This document shows, one piece after another, positions 2,922 to 56,845 of a stretch of DNA of 64,000 nt (the stretch's first letter is position 1; the number at the start of each line of letters is the position of its first letter). Origin of the DNA: Victivallis lenta (GTDB lineage Bacteria; Verrucomicrobiota; Lentisphaeria; Victivallales; Victivallaceae); contig NZ_VUNS01000007.1 of assembly GCF_009695545.1 (NCBI RefSeq), forward strand, positions 62,001 through 126,000, read 5' to 3'. The position numbers and the translations under genes are program-made. Under the pieces are notes generated by a model that saw nothing but the letters and a program-made list of their open reading frames with translations, was not told the origin of the DNA and searched no databases.

Positions 2922-3843
2922 CCATCGGCTCGGAAGCATCGTTGAGTCCGCCGGCCGTTGCGCTGCGCCGGCAGCTGCCCGGCGTACGGCCGTAGCGGCG
3001 GCGGAATACGCGCGAAAAATAGCCGGCGCCGGAAAATCCGACCCGGCAGGCCACATGTGAAATCGGCAGCTCGGTTGAGGTCAGCAGCCGCATCGCCTTT
3101 GCCAGACGGATTTCGGTGAGGCACTCCTTCGGCGTCCGCCCGGTCAGTTCCAGAAAGCAGCGTTCCAGCGAACGGACCGACATGCCGTGCTCCTTCGCCA
3201 GCTCCGAAATCTGAAGCGGTTCGCCCGACCGCTCCTCGAGCCGTCTGAACCACTGTCCGAGCCGCAGAAGCCCGTCGCCGTTCCCGGTTCCGGCGGAGGA
3301 GGCGAAGGCGCGCAGAATCAGGACGACCATCTGCATGAAGTATGCCTTGAGTGCAAACCCGCTGCACGCCTTCGGCTTCAACTGCTCCGCAAGCATGGCG
3401 TCGATGACCGTTTCGGCGTTCCGCATGGCCTCCGCGTCGAGCCGGAACCGGGGGCGGAACGAATCGGCCAGCTGCGGCGACAGCTCGAAAAAGACCAGAT
3501 AACCCGGATCGCCGCGCAGCTCCGCGAACGGCATGCCGAGTTGCTCCGGCAGGAACAGGATGTTCACGATTTCGAGCCCGTCGAGGTCGCGGTAGCCGTG
3601 CAGGCAGCCGGGGCGCACGAGATAGAGGTCGCCGCGCGAGAGCGGATATTCGCCGTCTTCGGTCATGTGGAACCCGGAGCCGGAGAGTACCAGCACGAGT
3701 TCATGAAAATCGTGTTCGTGAACGAGATCGGCGTCGAGCAGGTATTTTTTCCGGATCACCCGGATACCGGGACCCGTTTCGTTGAAAATACTGCTCCGCG
3801 GCATCCGGTACGGATGGTTTCGCGTTCCCCGGCTGATTTTCAT
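2917..3843 (-). CDS. AraC-family transcriptional regulator
   Basis: This 308-aa regulator has an N-terminal cupin-like sensor domain (HEHDFHELVLVLSG, then a PGCLHGY loop, roughly residues 35-100), which probably binds a sugar. A C-terminal double helix-turn-helix AraC domain occupies about residues 195-295: ISELAKEHGMSVRSLERCF, then ISHVACRVGFSGAGYFSRVF and the RRRYGRTPG end signature. The start is supported by GAGGGG eight bases upstream. It is divergent from the GH2 gene and shares a 148-bp intergenic region with it. Direct repeats spaced 21 bp lie there, so it probably controls the GH2 gene and itself (inference). Confidence 0.9.
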   Translation of the reverse strand: MKISRGTRNHPYRMPRSSIFNETGPGIRVIRKKYLLDADLVHEHDFHELVLVLSGSGFHMTEDGEYPLSRGDLYLVRPGCLHGYRDLDGLEIVNILFLPEQLGMPFAELRGDPGYLVFFELSPQLADSFRPRFRLDAEAMRNAETVIDAMLAEQLKPKACSGFALKAYFMQMVVLILRAFASSAGTGNGDGLLRLGQWFRRLEERSGEPLQISELAKEHGMSVRSLERCFLELTGRTPKECLTEIRLAKAMRLLTSTELPISHVACRVGFSGAGYFSRVFRRRYGRTPGSCRRSATAGGLNDASEPME

Positions 3844-38929: not shown

Positions 38930-40594
38930 ATGCTTATCTATGTGAAAATCACGAATTTTGCGTTGATTGAGGAGTCCGAGCTGGAGTTCGGGCCCGGTTT
39001 CAACGTCGTCACCGGGGAATCCGGGGCGGGCAAATCGATCCTGATGGGTGCGGTTGAGCTGCTGCTCGGCGGCCGGGTCGACAAGGGAGTGATCCGCAAC
39101 GGGTGCGACCGTTGCATGGTGTGCGGCGGATTTGCCGTGCCGGCGGGGCTGGCCGGTGCGGTCGGCGCGATTCTCGTTCCGGCCGGAATTCCGTTCGATC
39201 CGGCGGAGCCGCTGCAGCTGCGGAGGGTGATCGGGCAGTCGAGCGTCCGCAATTATGTGAACGACACGCCGGTCAGCGCGCGGCTGCTGGCTTCGGTCGG
39301 GGAGCAGCTGATCGATCTTCACGGCGCGAACGAGCAGCTTTCGCTGACGGTCCCGGCCCGGCAGCTCGATTTGCTGGATCGTTACGCCGGTGCGGAGGAG
39401 GCGGCTGCCCTCTGCGGCAGGATCGCCGGAGAGCTCGAAGCCCTGGCGAAGGAGCGCGAGGAGTTCGACCGGCAGACGCCGGACGAGGCCGAGCGGAGCC
39501 GTCTCGAGCTTCAGCTCGAAGACATCGACAAGGTCAACCCGGCGCCGGGCGAGGATGAAGAGCTTTCGGCTCGGTTCAAGGTGGCGGGGAATTCGCGGCA
39601 GGTGCTTGAAACGGCCGGGCAGCTGACCGCGGCGCTGACTGAGGGGGAAGACTCGGTGGCAGACCGGCTCGGGAGCGTTTACCGCAGGCTGCTCGAACTG
39701 TCGCGCATCGATGAGGCGCTGGCGGCGGGGCTGCTTGAGGAGTGCGACCGGATTCAGGAAGATGTGAGCGCGCTTTCGGGCCGCGTTGCGGAGCTGGCGG
39801 ACAAAGTGGACCTGGACCCGGAGGCGCTGGCCGCGATTGAGAGCCGGCTGGGAGAATTGTTTACGATCAAGCGGCGTTACGGGCCGACGCTCGAGCAGGT
39901 GCTGGCGGTGCGCGGGGAGGCGTTCCGGCGGCTGGAGCTGTACCGGAATACCGCTGTGCGCCGCCAGGAGTTCGAGCGCCGGAAGGCGGAGCTGACGGCT
40001 GAGCTGCGCCGGGCGGCGGAAAAGCTGTCGGCGCTGCGGAAAAAGAAGGCGGCGGAGTTTGCGGAGCGGGTGCGTTCGAAGCTCGGAGCGATCGGGTTTG
40101 CGAAATGCGTGCTTGAGGTGGCGTTTTCGGAAGTCGAGCCGGGGCCGAACGGGATGGACCGGGTTGAGCTTCTGTTCAGCGCGAATGCGGGTGAGAGCGT
40201 GCATCCGTTGCGGAAGATTGCGTCGAGCGGGGAGTTGTCGCGATTGATGCTGGCGCTGAAGACGGTGCTGGCGGACGCGGATTCGATTCCGGTGGTGGTG
40301 TTTGATGAGATCGACGTGAATATCGGCGGCGAGACGGCGAACCGGGTGGGCGAAGAGCTGCACCATCTGGGCCGGAACCGGCAGATTTTGTGTATTTCGC
40401 ATCTGGCGCAGGTCGCGGCGCGTGCGGACCGTCATTTCCGGGTGGAGAAGCACACGGAAGAGGGACGGACGTTTTCGGAGTGCCGGGAGCTGGATGCGGA
40501 AGGGCGTGTGCGGGAGATCGGGCGGATGCTCGGCGGCGGGGAGTCGGCGGTGACCCACGCGCGCGCTATCCTGAGTAAAATCAAAGAGCAATAA
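38930..40594 (+). CDS. recN: DNA repair protein RecN
   Basis: This 554-aa SMC-like ATPase acts in recombinational repair of double-strand breaks. The N-terminus has KITNFALIEESELEFGPGFN and Walker A GESGAGKSILMGAVELLLGG (about residues 29-37 for the loop). A long coiled-coil middle follows (about 150-370). The C-terminal lobe has the signature ASSGELSRLMLALK, Walker B VVVFDEIDVNIGGETA and ILCISHLAQVAARAD. The length matches the family. The likely promoter is so close that the mRNA may start at the ATG. A hairpin follows at the stop. Confidence 0.96.
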   Translation: MLIYVKITNFALIEESELEFGPGFNVVTGESGAGKSILMGAVELLLGGRVDKGVIRNGCDRCMVCGGFAVPAGLAGAVGAILVPAGIPFDPAEPLQLRRVIGQSSVRNYVNDTPVSARLLASVGEQLIDLHGANEQLSLTVPARQLDLLDRYAGAEEAAALCGRIAGELEALAKEREEFDRQTPDEAERSRLELQLEDIDKVNPAPGEDEELSARFKVAGNSRQVLETAGQLTAALTEGEDSVADRLGSVYRRLLELSRIDEALAAGLLEECDRIQEDVSALSGRVAELADKVDLDPEALAAIESRLGELFTIKRRYGPTLEQVLAVRGEAFRRLELYRNTAVRRQEFERRKAELTAELRRAAEKLSALRKKKAAEFAERVRSKLGAIGFAKCVLEVAFSEVEPGPNGMDRVELLFSANAGESVHPLRKIASSGELSRLMLALKTVLADADSIPVVVFDEIDVNIGGETANRVGEELHHLGRNRQILCISHLAQVAARADRHFRVEKHTEEGRTFSECRELDAEGRVREIGRMLGGGESAVTHARAILSKIKEQ

Positions 40595-40617
40595 GAGCTT
40601 ATCCCTGAATAAGCTCT
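40594..40617 (+). terminator. Hairpin at recN stop
   Basis: AGAGCTTAT (40594-40602) pairs with ATAAGCTCT (40609-40617) around CCCTGA. No T tract follows; it is the first member of the hairpin array. Confidence 0.5.
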
Positions 40618-41035
40618 AAGTCGGGGAGCGAAGCGATCGGGTTCAGGGCCTTTCGGCCCTGGCGGGATTCCAAAGGCTGCGCAAGCCTTTGGTGGAGTTT
40701 GAGGCCAAGCCTCAGGCAGACCCGTGCGAAGCTCAATCCGGACAGTCCGCAACCGAGTTGCGGCGCTTCGAACGGTGTGAGCGACGCGGCCGGAGGCTGC
40801 GGAGCGGTCGAAGGGGCCGAGGCGTAGTTGCCGCCGTAAAACCGATGATGCACCGGACCGGCAGGCGATGGTTGAATGCGGGCTGACAGTGTGATTGGCC
40901 GGAAGAGGGAGGCGCCCCTTCCGGGGCGCGGTCTGTCGCCCTCCGGGCTCAGACCGTGTACGCTGCGCGTACATTGCCTCCGGCGGTCGGGGGCGCTTCA
41001 TCCCGAGCCCCGACCGGCAGGGTGCCGGTGCCGTC

Positions 41036-41054
41036 GGCGGCTTTGCCGCCTTTT
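41036..41054 (+). terminator. Intrinsic terminator closing hairpin array
   Basis: GGCGGC-TTT-GCCGCC followed by TTTT: the only hairpin of the array with a T tract. It lies 38 bp before the SGNH ATG. Confidence 0.6.
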
Positions 41055-41091
41055 GTGTGTGCGAATTTTCGATTGTTTTGAGGTATGGTTT

Positions 41092-41706
41092 ATGAGACGG
41101 GTTTTCAATGCCGGAATCCCCGGCGACACGACGCGCGAACTGCTGGCGCGTTTTCAGCGGGATGTCGCCATGCGCGCGCCGGATCTGGTTATCCTCTGGG
41201 CCGGCGTCAACGACCGGCTCTATCCGGGCCACACCGTCGAACCGGCGGAATTCAGGGCGAATTATGCCGAACTGCTCGACCGTATCCGCGTGATTGGTGC
41301 AAAGGTGCTGATCGGAACCCTGCCGCCGCAGTACAAGCCGTATCTCTTCACGCAGTTTCCGCCCATCGCGGAGTTTCCGGAAACCCCGGAGGAGCGGTTG
41401 GCCCCGGTCAACGCCCATCTCCGGAGTCTCGGCGTTCCGCTGGCGGATTTCGAAGCGGTGGTCAGAAGCCGTCCGGTCGACGAAGTTCCCGAATCGTATT
41501 TGCGGAACCTCTCGAACAGCGGCGTCCCCGACGGTCTGCATCTGACTCCGGAAGGAGCCGGGGCCGTCGCGCGTTGCGCGGATGATGCGATCCGGCAATA
41601 TGCTCTCCCGTCCGCCCGGATCGTCTGCTTCGGCGACAGCCTGACCTACGGGTATGGACTCAAGCGGGACGAGACGTATCCATCCCGCCTCGCCGAACTC
41701 GGATAG
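41092..41706 (+). CDS. SGNH/GDSL hydrolase with circularly permuted block order
   Basis: This 204-aa protein holds all four SGNH blocks but in the order II-III-V-I. It starts at MRRVFNAGIPGDTTREL (block II Gly), then ILWAGVNDRLYP (block III, N40), then PDGLHLTPEG (block V, D147 and H150). It ends with block I, IVCFGDSLTYGYGL (nucleophile S183) and YPSRLAELG, immediately before the stop. In normal family members block I is N-terminal and flows straight into the NAG-x-x-GDTT segment. All catalytic residues and a normal total length (about 200 aa) are kept, with a linker of about five residues. GAGGT stands 7 nt before the ATG. It may be an active esterase/lipase or the remnant of a tandem duplication. 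Confidence 0.8.
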   Translation: MRRVFNAGIPGDTTRELLARFQRDVAMRAPDLVILWAGVNDRLYPGHTVEPAEFRANYAELLDRIRVIGAKVLIGTLPPQYKPYLFTQFPPIAEFPETPEERLAPVNAHLRSLGVPLADFEAVVRSRPVDEVPESYLRNLSNSGVPDGLHLTPEGAGAVARCADDAIRQYALPSARIVCFGDSLTYGYGLKRDETYPSRLAELG

Positions 41707-41831: not shown

Positions 41832-41853
41832 TAATATCGAAATGGAGATAGCA

Positions 41854-42969
41854 ATGATAGACAATTTTGAGAAATTCAACGGCGGCAAGACCGGCTTGGT
41901 CGAGCAGGAGATTCTGCGGCAGATCGACCTCGGCAATTTTCGGCGGAACTCCCTGCTCCCGTCGGAGCGGGAGCTTGCGAAGCAGCTGGGCGTCAGTTAT
42001 ATGACGGTTCGGCGCGCGATCGGGAAACTGGTTGATGACAGCTTTCTGACCCGTGTGCAGGGCAAGGGCACTTATGTGCGCGGCGACGTGCCGCTGCACC
42101 GGATGCAGCAGACGCTCGGAATCGTCGTCCCCGCCTGGGAGACGCCGGAACATGCGGACCTCATGATGATCCTCACTGCAATCGCCGGGGAGAACGGAGT
42201 GCTGCCGAAATTCCATCTCTGCCGCTCGTGGGAGGACCGGACGGTCGTCGATGCGTATGAGAGCTGCGACTACCTGCTGCTCGTGCCGCCGGCGCCGCTC
42301 GCGGATCTTCCGGAGGAGATGCTGGTCCGTTTCCGGGCCGGAACGACGCCGGTCGTCGTGCTCGGGCTCGACGCAACGCCGTACGGCCTCGATTCGGTGA
42401 CCGGCGACGCCTGCACGGAGGCCGGAATCCGGGAGCTGCGCCGGCTCGGGCACTGCCGGATCGGCCTGATGACTCAGGTCGAAGAGCGCGGCGGAAAGCT
42501 GCTTCGCCAGACCGAGACCTTTTACCGGAACTGGCGGCTGCGGATGCTGGAACGGTTTTCCGCGAAGGAGGTCGACCGGATGGAAATCCGGATTCCGGTC
42601 AAGGCCTACGAGCTGCCTCACCAGGCGTTTTACGACTATCTGTATGTGAACGGGAAAGACCTGCCCTTCACCGCGCTCATGCTGCCGCTTGCGGTCGCGT
42701 GGGGTGTCATCTCCGCCGCGGCGGACAGCGGCCTGGCCGTCCCGCAGAAGCTTTCGATCCTCAGCATCGGCGACCGGCAGGAGGCGCGCTTCTACCGCCC
42801 CCGGCTCTCGCTGGTGCGCGTCTCCTACCGGCGGCACGCCGAGCTTGCGTTTGAAGCCCTGCGGCGGAGAATGCAGGAGCCCGGCCTGCCGCCGCGCTGT
42901 TTCACCGTTGAGCCGGAACTGGTTCCGGGAGAAACGGTATCGCCGCTTTTACCGCCCGACAACCTTTAA
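41854..42969 (+). CDS. GntR-type transcription regulator with effector domain
   Basis: This 371-aa regulator starts at [15 protein letters not shown], 6 nt after GGAG; the ATG at 41842 lacks a ribosome site. The GntR winged helix covers about residues 12-75 ([20 protein letters not shown], then [11 protein letters not shown]). A LacI-like sugar-sensing domain follows ([35 protein letters not shown]). The prepilin and GH71/99-like genes follow within 22 bp and 4 bp, so this is a regulator-led operon, probably autoregulated through the palindrome at its -10 box. Confidence 0.88.
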
Positions 42970-42991
42970 CTTTCAACGAAAGAGGTTTCCC

Positions 42992-43720
42992 ATGAAAATC
43001 AGGTCACGTGCGTTCACTCTGATCGAGCTTCTGGTGGTTATTGCGATCATCGCCATTCTGGCTTCGATGCTGCTGCCGGCGCTGAATCAGGCGCGTGAGC
43101 GGGCGCGGACGGTCAAGTGTACCGGCAATCTGAAGCAGATCATGTCGGCGGTGGATTTCTACCGCAACGACAACCACGGCTACTTCCCGGTCATCAACGC
43201 AGGCGGCGCTTCGAACGTGACCGATAAACGCTGGTGGACGAATATGCTGGCCGTCTACCTGCCGCCGGTCGAATGGCGCTCCGAGGAGGCCGGAAGCGTC
43301 AGGTACAATGCAAAATGCGTCTGGACCTGCCCGTCGGTCAAATCCGAAATGTGCGAAGGGGAGAGCTGGGGCGCCGGGTATGCGCCGTATTCGCTCGGGC
43401 CGATCACCTGGCTCAATCCCCAGATGAGCTATGGATGGGGATACAATCGAGGCGAACGGACCAGACTGCGGGGGAACGCTTCGCAGGTTTCGAAGCGGAT
43501 CGTCCTTTCCGATGCGATGCAGTTCCGGGTCAACGATTTTCCGCTGACTGCGGCGGAGACCCGGCTCCGCACCCATATCGACTGGCTCGGCAACAACGTC
43601 AAGCAGCCGGCCAACTGGCACGGCGATGGAGCGAACGTCAGTTTTGCGGACGGCCACGTCGAATATCACAAGTGGCTCGAGCTCTACAATTCCGAAAAAA
43701 TCTACTTTGCGTGGTGGTGA
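42992..43720 (+). CDS. Prepilin-type protein with H-x9-DG domain
   Basis: This 242-aa pseudopilin begins [20 protein letters not shown] with AGAGG 6 nt upstream; the open frame further upstream overlaps gntR and is a shadow. The helix ends [17 protein letters not shown]. The signature is intact ([20 protein letters not shown]). It lies between gntR and a GH71/99-like gene. Confidence 0.9.
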
Positions 43721-43724
43721 GAAA

Positions 43725-45668
43725 ATGAAGAAAACTCTGCTGATTCTGGGAGCGGTGTTCGCACTGGCATCCGGCGCGGTCGGTGCGCCGGAACTGCCGG
43801 AGCGTGAAACCGCGGTCGTTGTGCTCTCATTCATCAGCCCGGTGGCGCGCGAATCGCTCAACTCGTACGATTACCGCATGCACAAGAACAGCCGCGAGGC
43901 GAAGAATTATCCGCTGCCGCTGACCGCGCTGCCGGAGAAGGCCGTGCTGTACGGACAGGAGGGATATCTGCCGCTCGAACTCGCCGCGGCGCGGGAGCAT
44001 ATGAAGCGGATCCGCGAATCCGGGTTTGATCTTGTTTTCTTCGACATGCTGCCGATTCCGGACTATGATCCGGCGCAGGCGCTGACCTTCACGAACGAAC
44101 CGTTCTACTACTTTTCGAACTATTTCGAATGGATGAAGGCGGCGGAGGAGAATAATCTGAAGCTCGGAATCTTCGCGGATGTCGGCAATCAGTCGGCACG
44201 CTATCCGCAGTACCGCAGCATCACCCGGGACGAGTGGGTGAAGATCCTGCATGCCGCGCTCGGGATGATTCCGGAGTCGCCGGCGGCGTGGAAGGTGAAC
44301 GGCGTCGACGGCGTGGTCCATTTCGGTACTGACTGCGTCTACAACCTGAAAGCTTCGCCGGTTCCGGGGGCGCCGATGCCGGACGGCGGCTGGCGCGAAG
44401 TCTGGAAGCTGTTGCGGGAGAAGGGGGACGAATTCTTTTTCGTCTCCGATATTCGGCCGCACGGCAGGGACGGCGACTGGGACGGCCTGGCCGACGCCGC
44501 CTATCTGTTCGCCCCGGCCGGCCCCGCGCCGTTCATGACGGAGTATCAGGCCGACATCTCCCGGCGCCTCAGGATAACGCCGTATTACTGGACGGTCAGC
44601 AGCGGATATCACCGAATCCGGCGCGACTACACCCAGCCTGATTTTTCCCGGCTGCACGATACTTACCTGGCCGCCCTGCGTGCCGGGGCGCGGAAAATCA
44701 TCGTCATGACCTGGAACGATCTCGGCGAGGACCATGACATCTGGCCCTCCGCGAACAAAGGGAGCGAACTGCTCGATGTGGTCGCCTTCTATAACGACTG
44801 GTTCAAACGCGGAAAACAGCCGGAGATCGTGAAGGAGAAGCTCATCGTCGCCTATCCGTTCCGGGCTCCGGCCGAGGCGGCTTCCAAGCCTCCGGTTTAC
44901 GGCGGCGGCAAGTGGGCCTCTCCGGCATTCGAACCGAAGGTGTTCTACTGGAGCGCGCTGCGGCGGCCGAAACGTGTCGGGCTGGCCGGCCGGACGCTCG
45001 AGCTTCCGGCCGGGATTGCGATGGGCGAGATTCCGCTCGACCCGGGCGGCGACCCCGCGTCGATTCCGGTCGGCGCGAAGCTCGACGGGCGGACGGTTGT
45101 TCTGCCGCCCGTCGTGAAAACGGCCCGGGAAGGGGACGGCGGCGGCCTTGAGCACCGTTATGTGAATCTGCTCGGCTCCGCCGCCATGCGGACGGTCGGC
45201 AACCCGAAGACGGGCTGGGACTTTTCGAAAAACGACGAGAGCCGGGCGGAGAAGTCGTTCGATGCCGCGACGGGAATTACTATGAATTTCACTGCGGTTC
45301 CGGGAAAGCACAACTGGATCTATCTGCGGAACCATATGCCGGAAGGGAGCGTTCCGGCCGACGCGCGGTTCGTGCGCCTCGCTTACACGGGGAAAATTCC
45401 GGCCGGCATGAAACTGCTCTGCGTTCTGCAGGAGGAGGGCGGCGTCAGCTGTTCGTATGAGCTGCCGCTGCCGGAGGAGGCGGCCGGGGGCGGCGAGCTG
45501 ATCGTCCCGCTCGCGCAGTTCCGGCGGACCGGCTGGAGTGCCGCGTCTCCGGTCGACATTCCGACCGCCGCCCGGATTCGCTGGGGACATATCGGGCCGA
45601 TCGGAATTCCGGCTGAGGGTGATGCCGCCGGAACCCTGACGCTCCGGCAGTTCGACTTCCTGAAGTAA
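43725..45668 (+). CDS. Secreted GH71/GH99-like glycoside hydrolase
   Basis: This 647-aa exported protein starts at MKKTLLILGAVFALASGAVG (signal peptide). The first 400 residues form a barrel-like domain: REHMKRIRESGFDLVFFDML, YFEWMKAAEENNLKLGIFAD, YYWTVSSGYHRIRRDY and RKIIVMTWNDLGEDHDIWP. The last motif recalls the WND-x-GE region of GH71 endo-alpha-glucanases and GH99-like proteins. The C-terminal 200 residues are a sandwich, probably carbohydrate-binding. Catalytic residues were not assigned with certainty. It ends the gntR-prepilin operon. Confidence 0.72.
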   Translation: MKKTLLILGAVFALASGAVGAPELPERETAVVVLSFISPVARESLNSYDYRMHKNSREAKNYPLPLTALPEKAVLYGQEGYLPLELAAAREHMKRIRESGFDLVFFDMLPIPDYDPAQALTFTNEPFYYFSNYFEWMKAAEENNLKLGIFADVGNQSARYPQYRSITRDEWVKILHAALGMIPESPAAWKVNGVDGVVHFGTDCVYNLKASPVPGAPMPDGGWREVWKLLREKGDEFFFVSDIRPHGRDGDWDGLADAAYLFAPAGPAPFMTEYQADISRRLRITPYYWTVSSGYHRIRRDYTQPDFSRLHDTYLAALRAGARKIIVMTWNDLGEDHDIWPSANKGSELLDVVAFYNDWFKRGKQPEIVKEKLIVAYPFRAPAEAASKPPVYGGGKWASPAFEPKVFYWSALRRPKRVGLAGRTLELPAGIAMGEIPLDPGGDPASIPVGAKLDGRTVVLPPVVKTAREGDGGGLEHRYVNLLGSAAMRTVGNPKTGWDFSKNDESRAEKSFDAATGITMNFTAVPGKHNWIYLRNHMPEGSVPADARFVRLAYTGKIPAGMKLLCVLQEEGGVSCSYELPLPEEAAGGGELIVPLAQFRRTGWSAASPVDIPTAARIRWGHIGPIGIPAEGDAAGTLTLRQFDFLK

Positions 45669-51400: not shown

Positions 51401-52126
51401 TTATCTGGCGGAGAGAATCCAGCGGTCGAAAATCGGGCAGCCGGGCTGCTGCGTCCAGTTTCCATCGTGGAGCTGGCGGCGGTTCAGCGTTTCGACGTGG
51501 CCGTCCCAGAGCAGTGCGTTCAGCGTGTAATTGTGGTGGCGGAAGGCCATCCAGTAGCCGCTGCTGTCTCCCTTCTCCGGAATCATGTACTTCGGGTCGT
51601 TGTAACGGACGAAGGTGCCGACGCCGTCGACGATGTTCATGCGCAGCGAGGGCCGGGCCAGCGAGGTGATCTTGAAACTCTGCCGCGAGGCGTCCGTCCC
51701 GGACGGGAAGCTGTCGCTGGCCGCGACGCCCGGATAGTGCATGTTCTTCGCATACCAGTGTCCGGTATAGTTGTTGGCGTTGCGGTCGGCCGGCTTGGCC
51801 GGGCAGAAGAAGCCGGTATTCAGGTTGACGTTGCCGTCGTCATACGTGCTTTTCATGCTCGCTCCGAGCGCCTGCAGGAAGCCGGCATTGTTGCACCAGC
51901 GCATCGCATTGTCCCAGCTGTTGTTCAGCAGCAGAGGAACCACGAAATCGTCATATGCCGTCGAATAGATCGCCTCGGCCATGCCGAACTGCTTCAGATT
52001 CCCGGCGCACTTGACGGCGTGAGCGCGGGAACGCGCCTGATTCAATGCCGGCAGCAGCATCGATGCGAGGATTGCGATGATCGCTATAACAACCAGTAAC
52101 TCGATCAGCGTAAATGTGTTGCGCAT
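51401..52126 (-). CDS. Prepilin-type protein with H-x9-DG domain
   Basis: This 241-aa pseudopilin begins [20 protein letters not shown]. The helix ends [17 protein letters not shown], and the signature is intact ([15 protein letters not shown]). No Shine-Dalgarno sequence precedes the ATG, and the start codon lies inside one arm of a 16-bp inverted repeat whose other arm is about 290 bp upstream. It leads the module with the GH5-like enzyme. Confidence 0.87.
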
Positions 52127-52429
52127 AATATTGAGTATGTGAAAAAGGAGAGCCGGCCCGATGAAGAAAAGCGCTGCCGGAGCCCCGCGGCGCCGGAGAA
52201 CGAACTGCACGGTCCGGCGGCGGCGGCCTCCTCGGAAAGTGCCCGAAGCCCCGGATGGGGAATCAGGATGCAGCACCGGGCATACGGGCGGAACATAGCG
52301 CCGCCCGCAGCCGCGAAGCCATGCGACATGGATCGGACAATGTGCTGTAAGGATGACCATAACCTATTAACTGCAAAGGAAATGAATTATGAAGAAGAAT
52401 ATCGGCAAGTATAACATACTCAATATTAT
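52125..52429. repeat. 16-bp perfect inverted repeat flanking 273 bp
   Basis: ATAATATTGAGTATGT (52125-52140) is the exact reverse complement of 52414-52429. The left arm includes the start codon of the prepilin gene; the right arm lies in a permease-like fragment. The GC-rich stretch between has no recognised gene. No target-site duplication flanks it. Confidence 0.6.
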
Positions 52430-52466
52430 ACGTCGCAATATCCTCCTGGCGCCATTTATTTTCTGA
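52389..52466 (+). pseudogene. Fragment resembling start of sugar ABC permease
   Basis: A 25-codon frame reads MKKNIGKYNILNIIRRNILL then APFIF and stops. This is the style of N-terminus found in MalF/UgpA-type sugar permeases, where it runs straight into the first membrane segment. GGA stands a few bases upstream. It is cut off where the convergent GH gene ends (11-bp overlap). It is too short to be a working permease; a recombination scar is the likeliest reading, chance the alternative. Confidence 0.4.
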
Positions 52467-55400
52467 CCGAGCCGACGGCCTGGTCGAGCACATACCGGTC
52501 GGCAGGATTTTCGGCATGGAACTCCTGATCGCTGAAATACCAGTAAAAGCGGCCCTGCCGGACAAATGCGGCGCTTTCTCCCGCCGAACCGGGAATCCGG
52601 AACCGGGCGAGGACTTCACAGCCGTCGGCGAGCTGCTCCGGAACCACCAGCGAAGTCGCGCCGCCGCACGGCGCCGCCATCGAGCCGCCGCCGGCGGGCA
52701 GAAAACGGCCTGAAGCACTGCCGGTGATTTCGATCGGAGCCTTCCAGATCCCCCCATCGTCGCGCAGATTCCGCACGATGATGACCAGTTCATTCGCTCC
52801 GCCGAAGTTCGTTCCGTCTTCCGGAATCGCATATTCGCGCGACACCATCCAGTAGTTCGGCGTCTTTTCGCCGGTATGCCCGATCAGTTTGCCGTTCCAG
52901 AAAACCCAGTCGAGATCATCGACGGCGCCGAGTTTCAGCTTGAGCGGGCGTCCTTTCCAGCCGGCCGGAATCACGACACTGCGGCGGCAGGCTCCGTCGC
53001 CGATGCGGTATTGCAGAGAACCGGTCATGCCGGTTTCGCCCCACATCCCCGGCACTTTCACCGTTTCGCTTTTCTTCCAGCCGGCCGGAGGAGCGACCGG
53101 AGCCTTCTCCTGCGGCCCGAGAAAAATGAATTCCCAGCTTCCGGCAAGATCGATGCGCCCGGAATGTTCCGCCGCGCGCCGGACCGGGCCGGACTTCAGC
53201 AGGAGGCCGTTCTTCACGAGATACGCCGGCAGCCCGGCATCCTGCCTGCGGGCGTAGGAATCCAAGTCGAGCCTTCCGTTCAGCAGGACTTTGCCTTTGA
53301 AGCGGTTCCGCAGCACATCCAGAAGCCGCAGGTCGGCATAATCCGTTGCCGTGACCGCAAGCGCATAGCCGTCCAGCAGCGCGGGCTCGTCGATGATCCG
53401 CAGCGTTTCAAAGACGCCGACCCGGCAGCCGCGTTCTTCGAGCTGCGCAATCAGGTCGCCGAGCTTCGCCCCGGTCGAGGCTTCGAGCCGGGCGTTGACG
53501 ATTACCGCGACCGCCGGGCCGGTTTTCGGAACCGGGCGGAATGTGCGGATATGCGATGCAAGCTTCGGCAGATAGCCGACCTCCGGTTTCAGATGCCAGT
53601 CGTCATCCGCCAGCAGCATCCCGCCGCCGCCGCGAAAATGGAAGGCGAACGGGCAAAAGCCGAGCCCGAGCGCGACGTGGCGTTCGACCGCATTGCGGCT
53701 GCCCTCCATCTGCTGTTCGGAGTCATAGCTGCCGCGCGTCAGAGTTGCGGCCTTGCGTGCCTGCACGCCGCCCATATTGTAGTGCGTGCCGGGCAGGACA
53801 TGCTCTCCGACCGAGGTCAGAATCGCACGGTAATCGACCGGAACCGGACTGCGGTCCCACATATCGCCGATCGTGCGCTGGAACATGCCGTATGCTTCCG
53901 GGCGCGTCTCCCGCAAAGCGGCGACGATCCGGCCCGACTGCTCCTTCTGCATCATCGCCGCAAACCGGAGGTGATCGTAGAAGCGCGGATTCGACTCATA
54001 AGCCTGATCCGGCGAAGCGTCATCCTGAAAACCGAGGGGGCGGATTGTGCAGTCGTCCCAGTTCTCGCCGGGAGCGAGTCCGTAACGGTCGGCTCCGTCG
54101 GCCGCGGCGCCCCAGACCGCCTGCAGGTTTTCTCGGGTTCCGTATTCGCTCTTCAGAAATTCGTTCCAGCGCCGCAGCAGGTAGCGGCTGGCGGCCAGGC
54201 CGTCCCTGTCGCTGCCGATCGGCGTTTCATTGGTCGGCACCTCAAAAGCGACGATGTTCGGCAGCTCCGCAAACTCCGCGCCGAGGCGGCGCCAGGAATC
54301 TTCCAGCGCCTCCGGCCAGTGATAGGAATTGGCCTTGGCGAGTTTTCCATTGAGTTCATACCCCGGTTTTCCCCGGTTGAACCAGTCCGGATACGGCCAG
54401 TGCAGATCCACGCTGACACCGAAACCGTAGCGCTCCGCCTCGCGGACGATATCCTTCAGCATGCCGAGAAAGGCCGGGTCGAACTTTCCCTGTTCCGGCT
54501 CGAGCTTCTGCCAGATCACGTGCAGGCGGATTCCGTTGAAACCGAGCCCGGCGAGATACCGCATGTCCCACGGCCGCCACTGGTTCAGCCCCGGAGAGTA
54601 CAGCGCGCGGAAAAAATGGGGACCGAACATCCGAAACTCACGGCCGTCCGGGTAACGGAACTGTTCTGTTACGGGATCGTAGACAAAACGGCGTTTTTCG
54701 GGCGGCAGCGATGCGAGCGCGGCGTCGACATAGGCATCTGCCGATTTCTGGAGCTCCTCGCTCTTTTGCCGCAGGCCGTTGAAACCGCCCTGTTTTCCGG
54801 TTTCGATGAGAACCGCGTTTTCCGCCAGCAGCCGCCCGGCGGTTTCGGGGTCAAACAGTGTTTTAAAATAATTCAGCTGCTCGCGCTGTGCGGCAAGCAT
54901 GATGCCGGTCCAGAGGCAGGGTTCGATCTCCTGCGGAGTCTTTCCGTTCAGCGCGGCACGCCACGGGACGCCGCGCGCCTCGAGCGCCTCGAGCATCGTC
55001 CGCTGAACCAGGTTCAGCTTGCGGTCGCGCGTCAATCGGTAAGCCGCGGCTTTTCCGGCATCGGCAAAAATCATGTCCACCTTCAGTATGGCCATCTCCT
55101 TCCCGGCTTCACCGGCGACGAATTCGACCGAGTTGATGAGCTCCCGCTCCTGTTCCGGGACTCCGAATGCGGCCCAGTCGAAATCGATGAACTGCCGGCC
55201 GGCCGGCAGAACGACTTTCCGCGACTGCCCGGATTTTTTTGCGGCATAGAAACCCTTTTCACGGGAAAAGCCTTTGCAGACGTTCAGCGTCAACGCCGTC
55301 TCCTCCGGCAGCACCACCTCGAACCGGAGGCCGGAGGGCGGCGGATCGATCGGGTCGATAAAACCGAAGCCGTAGACCGCCCATCCTTTTGCGCCCGGTT

Positions 55401-56121
55401 TTCCCTGCACCTGCCAGAGTGCGGCTTTTACGCCGTCCACGACGGTTTCTTCGAGACGGCTGGTCAGGCCGCCGCCGCCGCGCAGGGAAAACACGCCGGT
55501 CAATTTATCGAACGGACGGGCGACCGGGTTGACGGCGCCCTCGGCGGCATCGAGCCAGTTCACAACGACCGGAGCGTCGGCGGCGAGCGGTTCCGGGTAG
55601 AGGAGCCCGAAGGAGTGAAGCTCCATGCGGTACGGTTCCGCGACGGAGAAGGTGACGGCGTTGACCCGGTTCCAGTCCGCGCTTTTCACATTCAGGTCCC
55701 CCCAGGTGAATTCGAGCGTCTGTTTTCCGGCGGAGAGCTCGACGCTGCGGCGCCCGAGCCATTCGGTCGCCCAGAACCCTTTGCCGGGCGTCTTGTTGAT
55801 CCGCGGCTCGATGTTGAGCCTGACCGGCCGCGGCAGCGTGACCTCCAGCCGGAAGCCGGCCGGAGCGGCGGTGCGGGGATTCTGAAATTCGATGCCGAGC
55901 GCGGACCAGCGTTCTTTTTCGCCTTTCCCCGCAACGGTGTTCCAGACGGCGGAATTTGCGCCGGGGATGAGCTTGCTTTCCAGTCCGGCGCCAGAGAAGG
56001 TGCAGCGGTTGCCGAGCTTTTCAGCCCGGATTTGCGCGCCGGAAAGGAGCGGAAGATATTCCGGAGCCGCCTCCGCCGCAGACACGGCGATGCAGGCAAG
56101 AATGACCAGGAGCTGTTTCAT
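52456..56121 (-). CDS. Large secreted multidomain clan-A glycoside hydrolase
   Basis: This 1221-aa exported enzyme starts at MKQLLVILACIAVSAAEA (signal peptide) with GGGAG upstream; the frame extends further upstream only as overlap with the prepilin. Two tandem related sandwich domains fill about residues 20-330. A clan-A barrel follows (about 480-880): LGFNGIRLHVIWQKLEPEQG, SVDLHWPYPDWFN and proposed acid/base E632 (VPTNETP). A C-terminal GH2-type sugar-binding sandwich follows (VKVPGMWGETG, LDWVFWNGKLIGHTG, ELVIIVRNLRDDGGIWK). The nucleophile was not assigned. It lies 19 bp after a prepilin gene; the exact GH family is uncertain. Confidence 0.8.
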   Translation of the reverse strand: MKQLLVILACIAVSAAEAAPEYLPLLSGAQIRAEKLGNRCTFSGAGLESKLIPGANSAVWNTVAGKGEKERWSALGIEFQNPRTAAPAGFRLEVTLPRPVRLNIEPRINKTPGKGFWATEWLGRRSVELSAGKQTLEFTWGDLNVKSADWNRVNAVTFSVAEPYRMELHSFGLLYPEPLAADAPVVVNWLDAAEGAVNPVARPFDKLTGVFSLRGGGGLTSRLEETVVDGVKAALWQVQGKPGAKGWAVYGFGFIDPIDPPPSGLRFEVVLPEETALTLNVCKGFSREKGFYAAKKSGQSRKVVLPAGRQFIDFDWAAFGVPEQERELINSVEFVAGEAGKEMAILKVDMIFADAGKAAAYRLTRDRKLNLVQRTMLEALEARGVPWRAALNGKTPQEIEPCLWTGIMLAAQREQLNYFKTLFDPETAGRLLAENAVLIETGKQGGFNGLRQKSEELQKSADAYVDAALASLPPEKRRFVYDPVTEQFRYPDGREFRMFGPHFFRALYSPGLNQWRPWDMRYLAGLGFNGIRLHVIWQKLEPEQGKFDPAFLGMLKDIVREAERYGFGVSVDLHWPYPDWFNRGKPGYELNGKLAKANSYHWPEALEDSWRRLGAEFAELPNIVAFEVPTNETPIGSDRDGLAASRYLLRRWNEFLKSEYGTRENLQAVWGAAADGADRYGLAPGENWDDCTIRPLGFQDDASPDQAYESNPRFYDHLRFAAMMQKEQSGRIVAALRETRPEAYGMFQRTIGDMWDRSPVPVDYRAILTSVGEHVLPGTHYNMGGVQARKAATLTRGSYDSEQQMEGSRNAVERHVALGLGFCPFAFHFRGGGGMLLADDDWHLKPEVGYLPKLASHIRTFRPVPKTGPAVAVIVNARLEASTGAKLGDLIAQLEERGCRVGVFETLRIIDEPALLDGYALAVTATDYADLRLLDVLRNRFKGKVLLNGRLDLDSYARRQDAGLPAYLVKNGLLLKSGPVRRAAEHSGRIDLAGSWEFIFLGPQEKAPVAPPAGWKKSETVKVPGMWGETGMTGSLQYRIGDGACRRSVVIPAGWKGRPLKLKLGAVDDLDWVFWNGKLIGHTGEKTPNYWMVSREYAIPEDGTNFGGANELVIIVRNLRDDGGIWKAPIEITGSASGRFLPAGGGSMAAPCGGATSLVVPEQLADGCEVLARFRIPGSAGESAAFVRQGRFYWYFSDQEFHAENPADRYVLDQAVGSVRK

Positions 56122-56140
56122 GGCGGAATCTCCCTTGTCC

Positions 56141-56845
56141 CTACCGGGGAATGAAAGTATATTTGGATTCGGAGGTCTCGCCGATGTCGGTTTTCGGAAT
56201 CCGGTCGACATGACCGTCCATGAGCAGGAAGTTGCCGAAACCGGTGCCTTGTACGGCCGGCTGCCAGTCGGCCGTGGTTCCGGCGGATTTCGTGGCGGAC
56301 GAACCGTGCCAGAATCCCATGTCGCGCTGATCGATCAGAGCGTTGGAAAACCAGCCGCCTGTGCAGAAGCTCGCATCGCCGATCAGGGTGACCCGGCTGG
56401 AATTGCTCACCCGGGTCACTTTGGCTCCCTTCTGAAAGTCCACCGTTCCCCCGTGTCCCGGCCAGGTGCGCCGGTTCATGCAGTAGGAGAGCCACTGGTT
56501 GTTCCCCCCGCCCGAAACCCGGATTCCGGTGACGCAAAGCAGAATCTTCTTCCCGGTTCCGCTCGCTTTGGCGTTATAACCGAGCTGCTCGCCCACCATC
56601 GTGGAAATCCGGCGCGCCCAGTGGTAATCCATCGCGGAGGTATCGACCGGAAACAGGAAATCGTTATTGGATGTCGTGTACAGCTGGAGTACTCCGCCCA
56701 TCTGCTTCAGGTTCGACATGCAGTTCGTGCTGTACGCCCGTTCCCGCGCCTGGTTCAGCGCAGGCAGCAGCATCGATGCGAGGATTGCGATGATCGCGAT
56801 CACTACCAGCAGTTCAATCAGTGTGAATGTGTGTTTCCTGCTCAT
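56141..56845 (-). CDS. Prepilin-type protein, variant H-x9-DG
   Basis: This 234-aa pseudopilin begins [20 protein letters not shown] with GGAGG 7 nt upstream. The helix ends [17 protein letters not shown]. The C-terminus has [12 protein letters not shown], but the residue nine before DG is Gln ([13 protein letters not shown]) instead of His; a His occurs earlier in FWHGSS. It is the first gene of the module, followed 19 bp later by the 1221-aa glycosidase. Two direct repeats lie in its upstream region. Confidence 0.87.

Follow-up and report, generated by a model that had tools for sequence, protein, structure and literature searches.

The window, a stretch of 64,000 nucleotides from Victivallis lenta (contig NZ_VUNS01000007.1, positions 62,001 to 126,000), carries on its forward strand a gene for a permuted SGNH/GDSL hydrolase (41092..41706, +), which encodes 204 aa with no apparent signal peptide and whose start and stop region are shared by its orthologues. 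The coordinates and length given by an earlier, sequence-only reading of this DNA held, as did its mention of a good ribosome site, a GAGG (41080..41083, +) located 8 nt 5' of the ATG. Upstream lies recN (38930..40594, +), separated from the permuted gene by a GC-rich intergenic stretch of ~500 nt (window 40595-41091) in which no close inverted repeats turned up when we searched for them, and downstream, outside the SGNH domain, lies a sugar-type regulator of the GntR/Peripla_BP_3 kind (41842..42969, +). Farther along the window, prepilin-like proteins are encoded at 42969-43720 and 51401-52360, next to large genes for secreted enzyme-like proteins at 43626-45668, which matches GH71 weakly, and at 52456-56211.

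The permuted protein has block II at its N-terminus, MRRVFNAGIPGDTT. The block (VFNAGIPG, residues 4-11, 41101..41124, +) can also be read as NAGIPGDT (residues 6-13), and its N6, G8 and G11 are invariant in an alignment of 21 sequences. It is followed by block III (GVND, residues 38-41, 41203..41214, +), with G38, N40 and D41 invariant among 21 sequences, by a family signature RN-x-x-NS (residues 138-143, 41503..41520, +), with N139 and N142 invariant (n=21), and by block V (DGLHLTPEG, residues 147-155, 41530..41556, +; core DGLH, residues 147-150), which holds Asp147 and His150 and in which D147, G148, H150, T152 and G155 do not vary (n=21). Predicted secondary structure places the linker between the old C-terminus and the old N-terminus (residues 170-175, 41599..41616, +) between a helix at 153-169 and a strand at 176-181. 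Block I comes last (residues 176-200, 41617..41691, +): it reads RIVCFGDSLTYG...YPSRL, includes the YP-x2-L helix, is matched by a canonical block-I HMM and is followed by the stop, the C-terminus of the protein being RIVCFGDSLTYGYG...YPSRLAELG. The Ser183 codon of this block (41638-41640, +) lies ~20 residues upstream of the stop codon, and C179, G181, D182, S183, T185, G187, P197 and L200 are invariant (n=21). The block order is thus II-III-V-I (G-N-H-S) and not the canonical I-II-III-V, while the catalytic residues S183, G8/G11, N40, D147 and H150, which the sequence-only reading had described as kept, are all invariant in the 21 aligned sequences. Because the chain runs from block II through to block I, its termini lie in the block I-block II loop.

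The swapped order, likewise proposed earlier, emerged from several searches. Lipase_GDSL_2 from Pfam matched the window protein at 1.8e-22 and 81 bits, entering at profile position 34, and the protein exceeded the curated cut-offs of both Lipase_GDSL_2 (PF13472) and Lipase_GDSL (PF00657). In a phmmer comparison with solved structures, two stretches aligned in swapped order, as with esterase 7c23, where residues 165-201 paired with its 12-47 and residues 4-66 with its 59-120. A block-I HMM trained on canonical proteins only located block I at residues 175-194 with 15.5 bits, whereas the best of 20,000 shuffles reached 8.9 bits, which excludes a chance block order; for 53/53 family sequences tested, the same HMM put block I in the final 30% of the domain. 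The RN-x-x-NS signature is not typical of canonical SGNH sequences; a looser pattern, N-x2-N-x4-D-x2-H, occurs in 42/52 permuted versus 1/46 canonical ones.

Using AlphaFold2 with the family alignment, we obtained confident models for the window protein (pLDDT 96.1, pTM 0.92) and for a Bacteroidota member (pLDDT 94.4, pTM 0.92). In VIA-align, residues 1-174 of the model superposed with an rmsd of ~2 Å and a Z of 13-16 on the structures of canonical SGNH proteins such as 4iyj, 3p94 and 7ddy, the matched part of which runs from approximately residue 44 through to the C-terminus; over residues 1-174 of the model, the predicted fold is the three-layer alpha/beta arrangement of SGNH proteins. In the moved block I, the model has a strand at 176-181 followed by a short helix at Ser183. 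A profile search of solved structures gave no stretch running from block II into block I among the 60 matches listed, the furthest reaching 177/217; the best Foldseek TM was 0.63 and most VIA-align matches ended near residue 174, and such lists can miss G-N-H-S structures.

The protein is not a single case; we found it to belong to a large family. The same 5.5-Mb genome holds three further genes with the order II-III-V-I: two encode proteins of 252 and 256 aa, the longer of them with a signal peptide, and in the third the permuted domain is the C-terminal part of a large protein. Among the 22 Lipase_GDSL_2 matches in this genome, the 4 permuted ones enter the model at position 25-34 and nearly all others at position 1-4. 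Upon searching 388 genomes of the phylum with a profile built from the genome's four permuted sequences, we obtained two clearly separate groups of matches, a permuted group that reaches the profile end and scores above ~130 bits (in at least 38/388 genomes) and a canonical group that stops near profile position 193, before block I, and scores below ~97 bits. A scan of genome contigs yielded further members in Victivallis, Verrucomicrobiales, Gimesia and other Planctomycetota, and, within Bacteroidota, in Parapedobacter, Gramella, Tamlana, Chitinophaga and others. Homologues with the same block order, a search for which the sequence-only reading had suggested, occur in several bacterial phyla. 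Full-length permuted members were present in at least 9/294 genomes of Gimesia's phylum in a Gimesia-centered search and in at least 4/395 genomes of Parapedobacter's phylum in a Parapedobacter-centered one, both being lower bounds because few candidates were scored per genome. Plasmid records searched at E 1e-5 yielded no relative of the permuted protein. As Pfam calls a GDSL lipase despite 33 missing N-terminal profile positions, the members of this sizeable family have probably passed for ordinary or truncated proteins in annotations.

At almost every locus inspected, the permuted domain terminates 0-12 residues before the stop. Six proteins carry it at the N-terminus, followed by at least 500 non-SGNH residues, and the domains found C-terminal to it include CBM_4_9 and DUF6259; in two marine-type Bacteroidota, it is itself C-terminal to a right-handed beta-helix. 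One genome (G092:C94) has two permuted SGNH genes ~2.2 kb apart, at 40919 and 43804. Degenerate copies were also seen. Locus L134 (G046:C53, ~93000-93560) joins the LacI-like ligand-binding part of a sugar-type regulator to a C-terminal degenerate permuted SGNH domain, in which GDSNTFG is retained and block III is changed. In L133 (G198:C27, ~3258-3839), the permuted domain forms the N-terminal part of a large enzyme-like protein, no longer has its catalytic Ser (IGGEEVHG) and is likely a pseudoenzyme of the permuted SGNH family.

In the textbook route to circular permutation, a gene is duplicated in tandem and the outer parts are then lost, and the family would most likely stem from such events. 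Duplication intermediates of the order I-II-III-V-I were sought among the ORFs of the loci examined, and none was found. For phylogenetic trees, we rotated the permuted sequences in silico to the canonical order. A quick tree placed all 51 permuted sequences on one side of a branch (support 80), corresponding to one change, while a careful tree of 88 rows needed two changes, did not reject a single origin (p-AU 0.363), and grouped the permuted set with eight canonical sequences (support 99/95). Given these results, a single origin of the permuted family seems plausible.

We conclude that circular permutation of one complete SGNH domain, as originally proposed, is the best-supported explanation, a reading that is firmly fixed because the homologues have the same order, and that the gene very probably encodes a complete and functional SGNH-type serine esterase, permuted to run from block II to block I with a short linker between the old termini, within a widespread G-N-H-S family. 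By analogy with canonical SGNH enzymes, Ser183, activated by His150 and Asp147, would attack an ester, and the oxyanion hole would form from Gly11, Asn40 and the Ser183 backbone, Gly11 being the putative oxyanion residue by comparison with the canonical enzymes. The esters attacked are likely to be O-acyl, and probably O-acetyl, substituents of carbohydrates. A signal peptide or a place among genes for sugar degradation is common in the homologues, whose neighbors include sulfatases, a 3-keto-disaccharide hydrolase, GFO/IDH oxidoreductases, and a set of amidohydrolase, glucosamine-6-phosphate isomerase-type and ROK genes; these neighborhoods, together with the CBM and beta-helix fusions, suggest esters on carbohydrates, and the most likely function is that of a carbohydrate O-acylesterase. 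The placement of members beside sulfatases, beta-helix proteins, CBMs and amino-sugar genes points to a set of candidate carbohydrate esterases. The window copy is probably cytoplasmic and probably acts on an intracellular small molecule or oligosaccharide, as its gene lies between recN and the GntR/Peripla_BP_3 regulator and lacks an obvious signal peptide, while recN and the GntR gene say little on the substrate itself. We would give even chances to a broader proposal, in which the family is an ancient, unrecognised G-N-H-S lineage of one origin that spread through Verrucomicrobiota/Lentisphaerota, Planctomycetota and Bacteroidota and forms a new carbohydrate esterase family with RN-x-x-NS as its own active-site signature.

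The sequence-only reading had also considered a misassembly or a decayed tandem SGNH pair, in which copy 1 lacks its 5' end and copy 2 its 3' end. Such a state is a stage on the duplication route to permutation, and tandem canonical SGNH genes do exist in relatives (G242:C44), yet three paralogues show the same order, and so do many genomes that were assembled independently. Furthermore, an orthologue is present in four other genomes of the genus (65-76% identity), and three of these orthologues end at the same position as the window protein while using different stop codons (TAA, TGA and TAG), so that the downstream decay suggested from the VSV/AGI bases is not supported. One of the related genomes, G061, keeps the orthologue directly 3' of recN, the arrangement seen in the window. 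In a comparison with the 75% orthologue, Ka was 0.17 in both segments, far below a Ks of 1.0 for blocks II-V and 1.3 for block I. Misassembly and tandem decay are therefore contradicted both by the orthologues, which have the same ends, and by the purifying selection that acts on the two segments, and an artefact or a functionless remnant is excluded.

A short linker and a terminal block I make it conceivable that block I is swapped between two chains, with the active site formed between subunits, but confidence is high along the whole of the single-chain model (pTM 0.92 again, for single chains only), and we consider such an exchange very improbable. Somewhat less remote, though still unlikely, is that the fold and triad are intact and the protein acts as an O-acyltransferase like AlgX, AlgJ and PatB1 instead of a hydrolase. 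The known permuted SGNH relatives are indeed O-acetyltransferases (PMC9487903), and one family member shows a weak AlgX match; against this, the permuted family has the canonical block III Asn, GDS and DxxH, in place of which AlgX/AlgJ show Tyr, GTSYS and DxH and PatB1 shows KDS and TDHHW, no membrane acyl donor partner lies directly beside the window gene, and the closest solved folds are hydrolases.

Canonical SGNH/GDSL hydrolases, such as E. coli TesA/TAP, acetylxylan esterases and sialate O-acetylesterases, have the blocks, the catalytic residues and the fold over residues 1-174 in common with the window protein, which differs from them in that its block I is C-terminal, not N-terminal, and in its extra invariant Asn residues in RN-x-x-NS. 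As all canonical catalytic motifs are kept, what permutation does to an enzyme that is unaltered in other respects can be tested directly. The sequence-only reading knew of no described circular permutant of this fold, which proved incorrect: AlgX, AlgJ and PatB1 are circularly permuted SGNH proteins of the order H-S-G-N with altered motifs (PMC9487903, PMC4148444, PMC5697884). In the literature on permuted SGNH/GDSL proteins that we covered, which took in few subscription journals, only these three appeared and none with G-N-H-S, no biochemically characterized member of the window family came up, and two recent permutation-detection papers made no mention of SGNH; the permuted G-N-H-S family is thus apparently undescribed. 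While the O-acetyltransferases AlgX and AlgJ share a circularly permuted SGNH fold with the window protein, their order is H-S-G-N(Y), with the cut between blocks III and V (PMC9487903, PMC4148444), whereas the window family has G-N-H-S, with the cut between blocks I and II, and canonical motifs, which its alignment shows as GDS[LI]T and DG[VL]H. PatB1, of the DHHW family, likewise has a circularly permuted SGNH core, but its order H-S-G-N, its KDS and TDHHW motifs and its beta-sandwich cap (PMC9487903) are all missing from the window family. The order V-I-II-III, GTSYS or KDS, and DxH or TDHHW are all absent from the window protein, and its ALGX Pfam match, at 15 bits, falls below the cut-off. 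The order G-N-H-S and the canonical motifs therefore mark a different permutation, outside the AlgX, AlgJ and DHHW families, and give the SGNH superfamily a second kind of circular permutation, in which the cut falls between blocks I and II.
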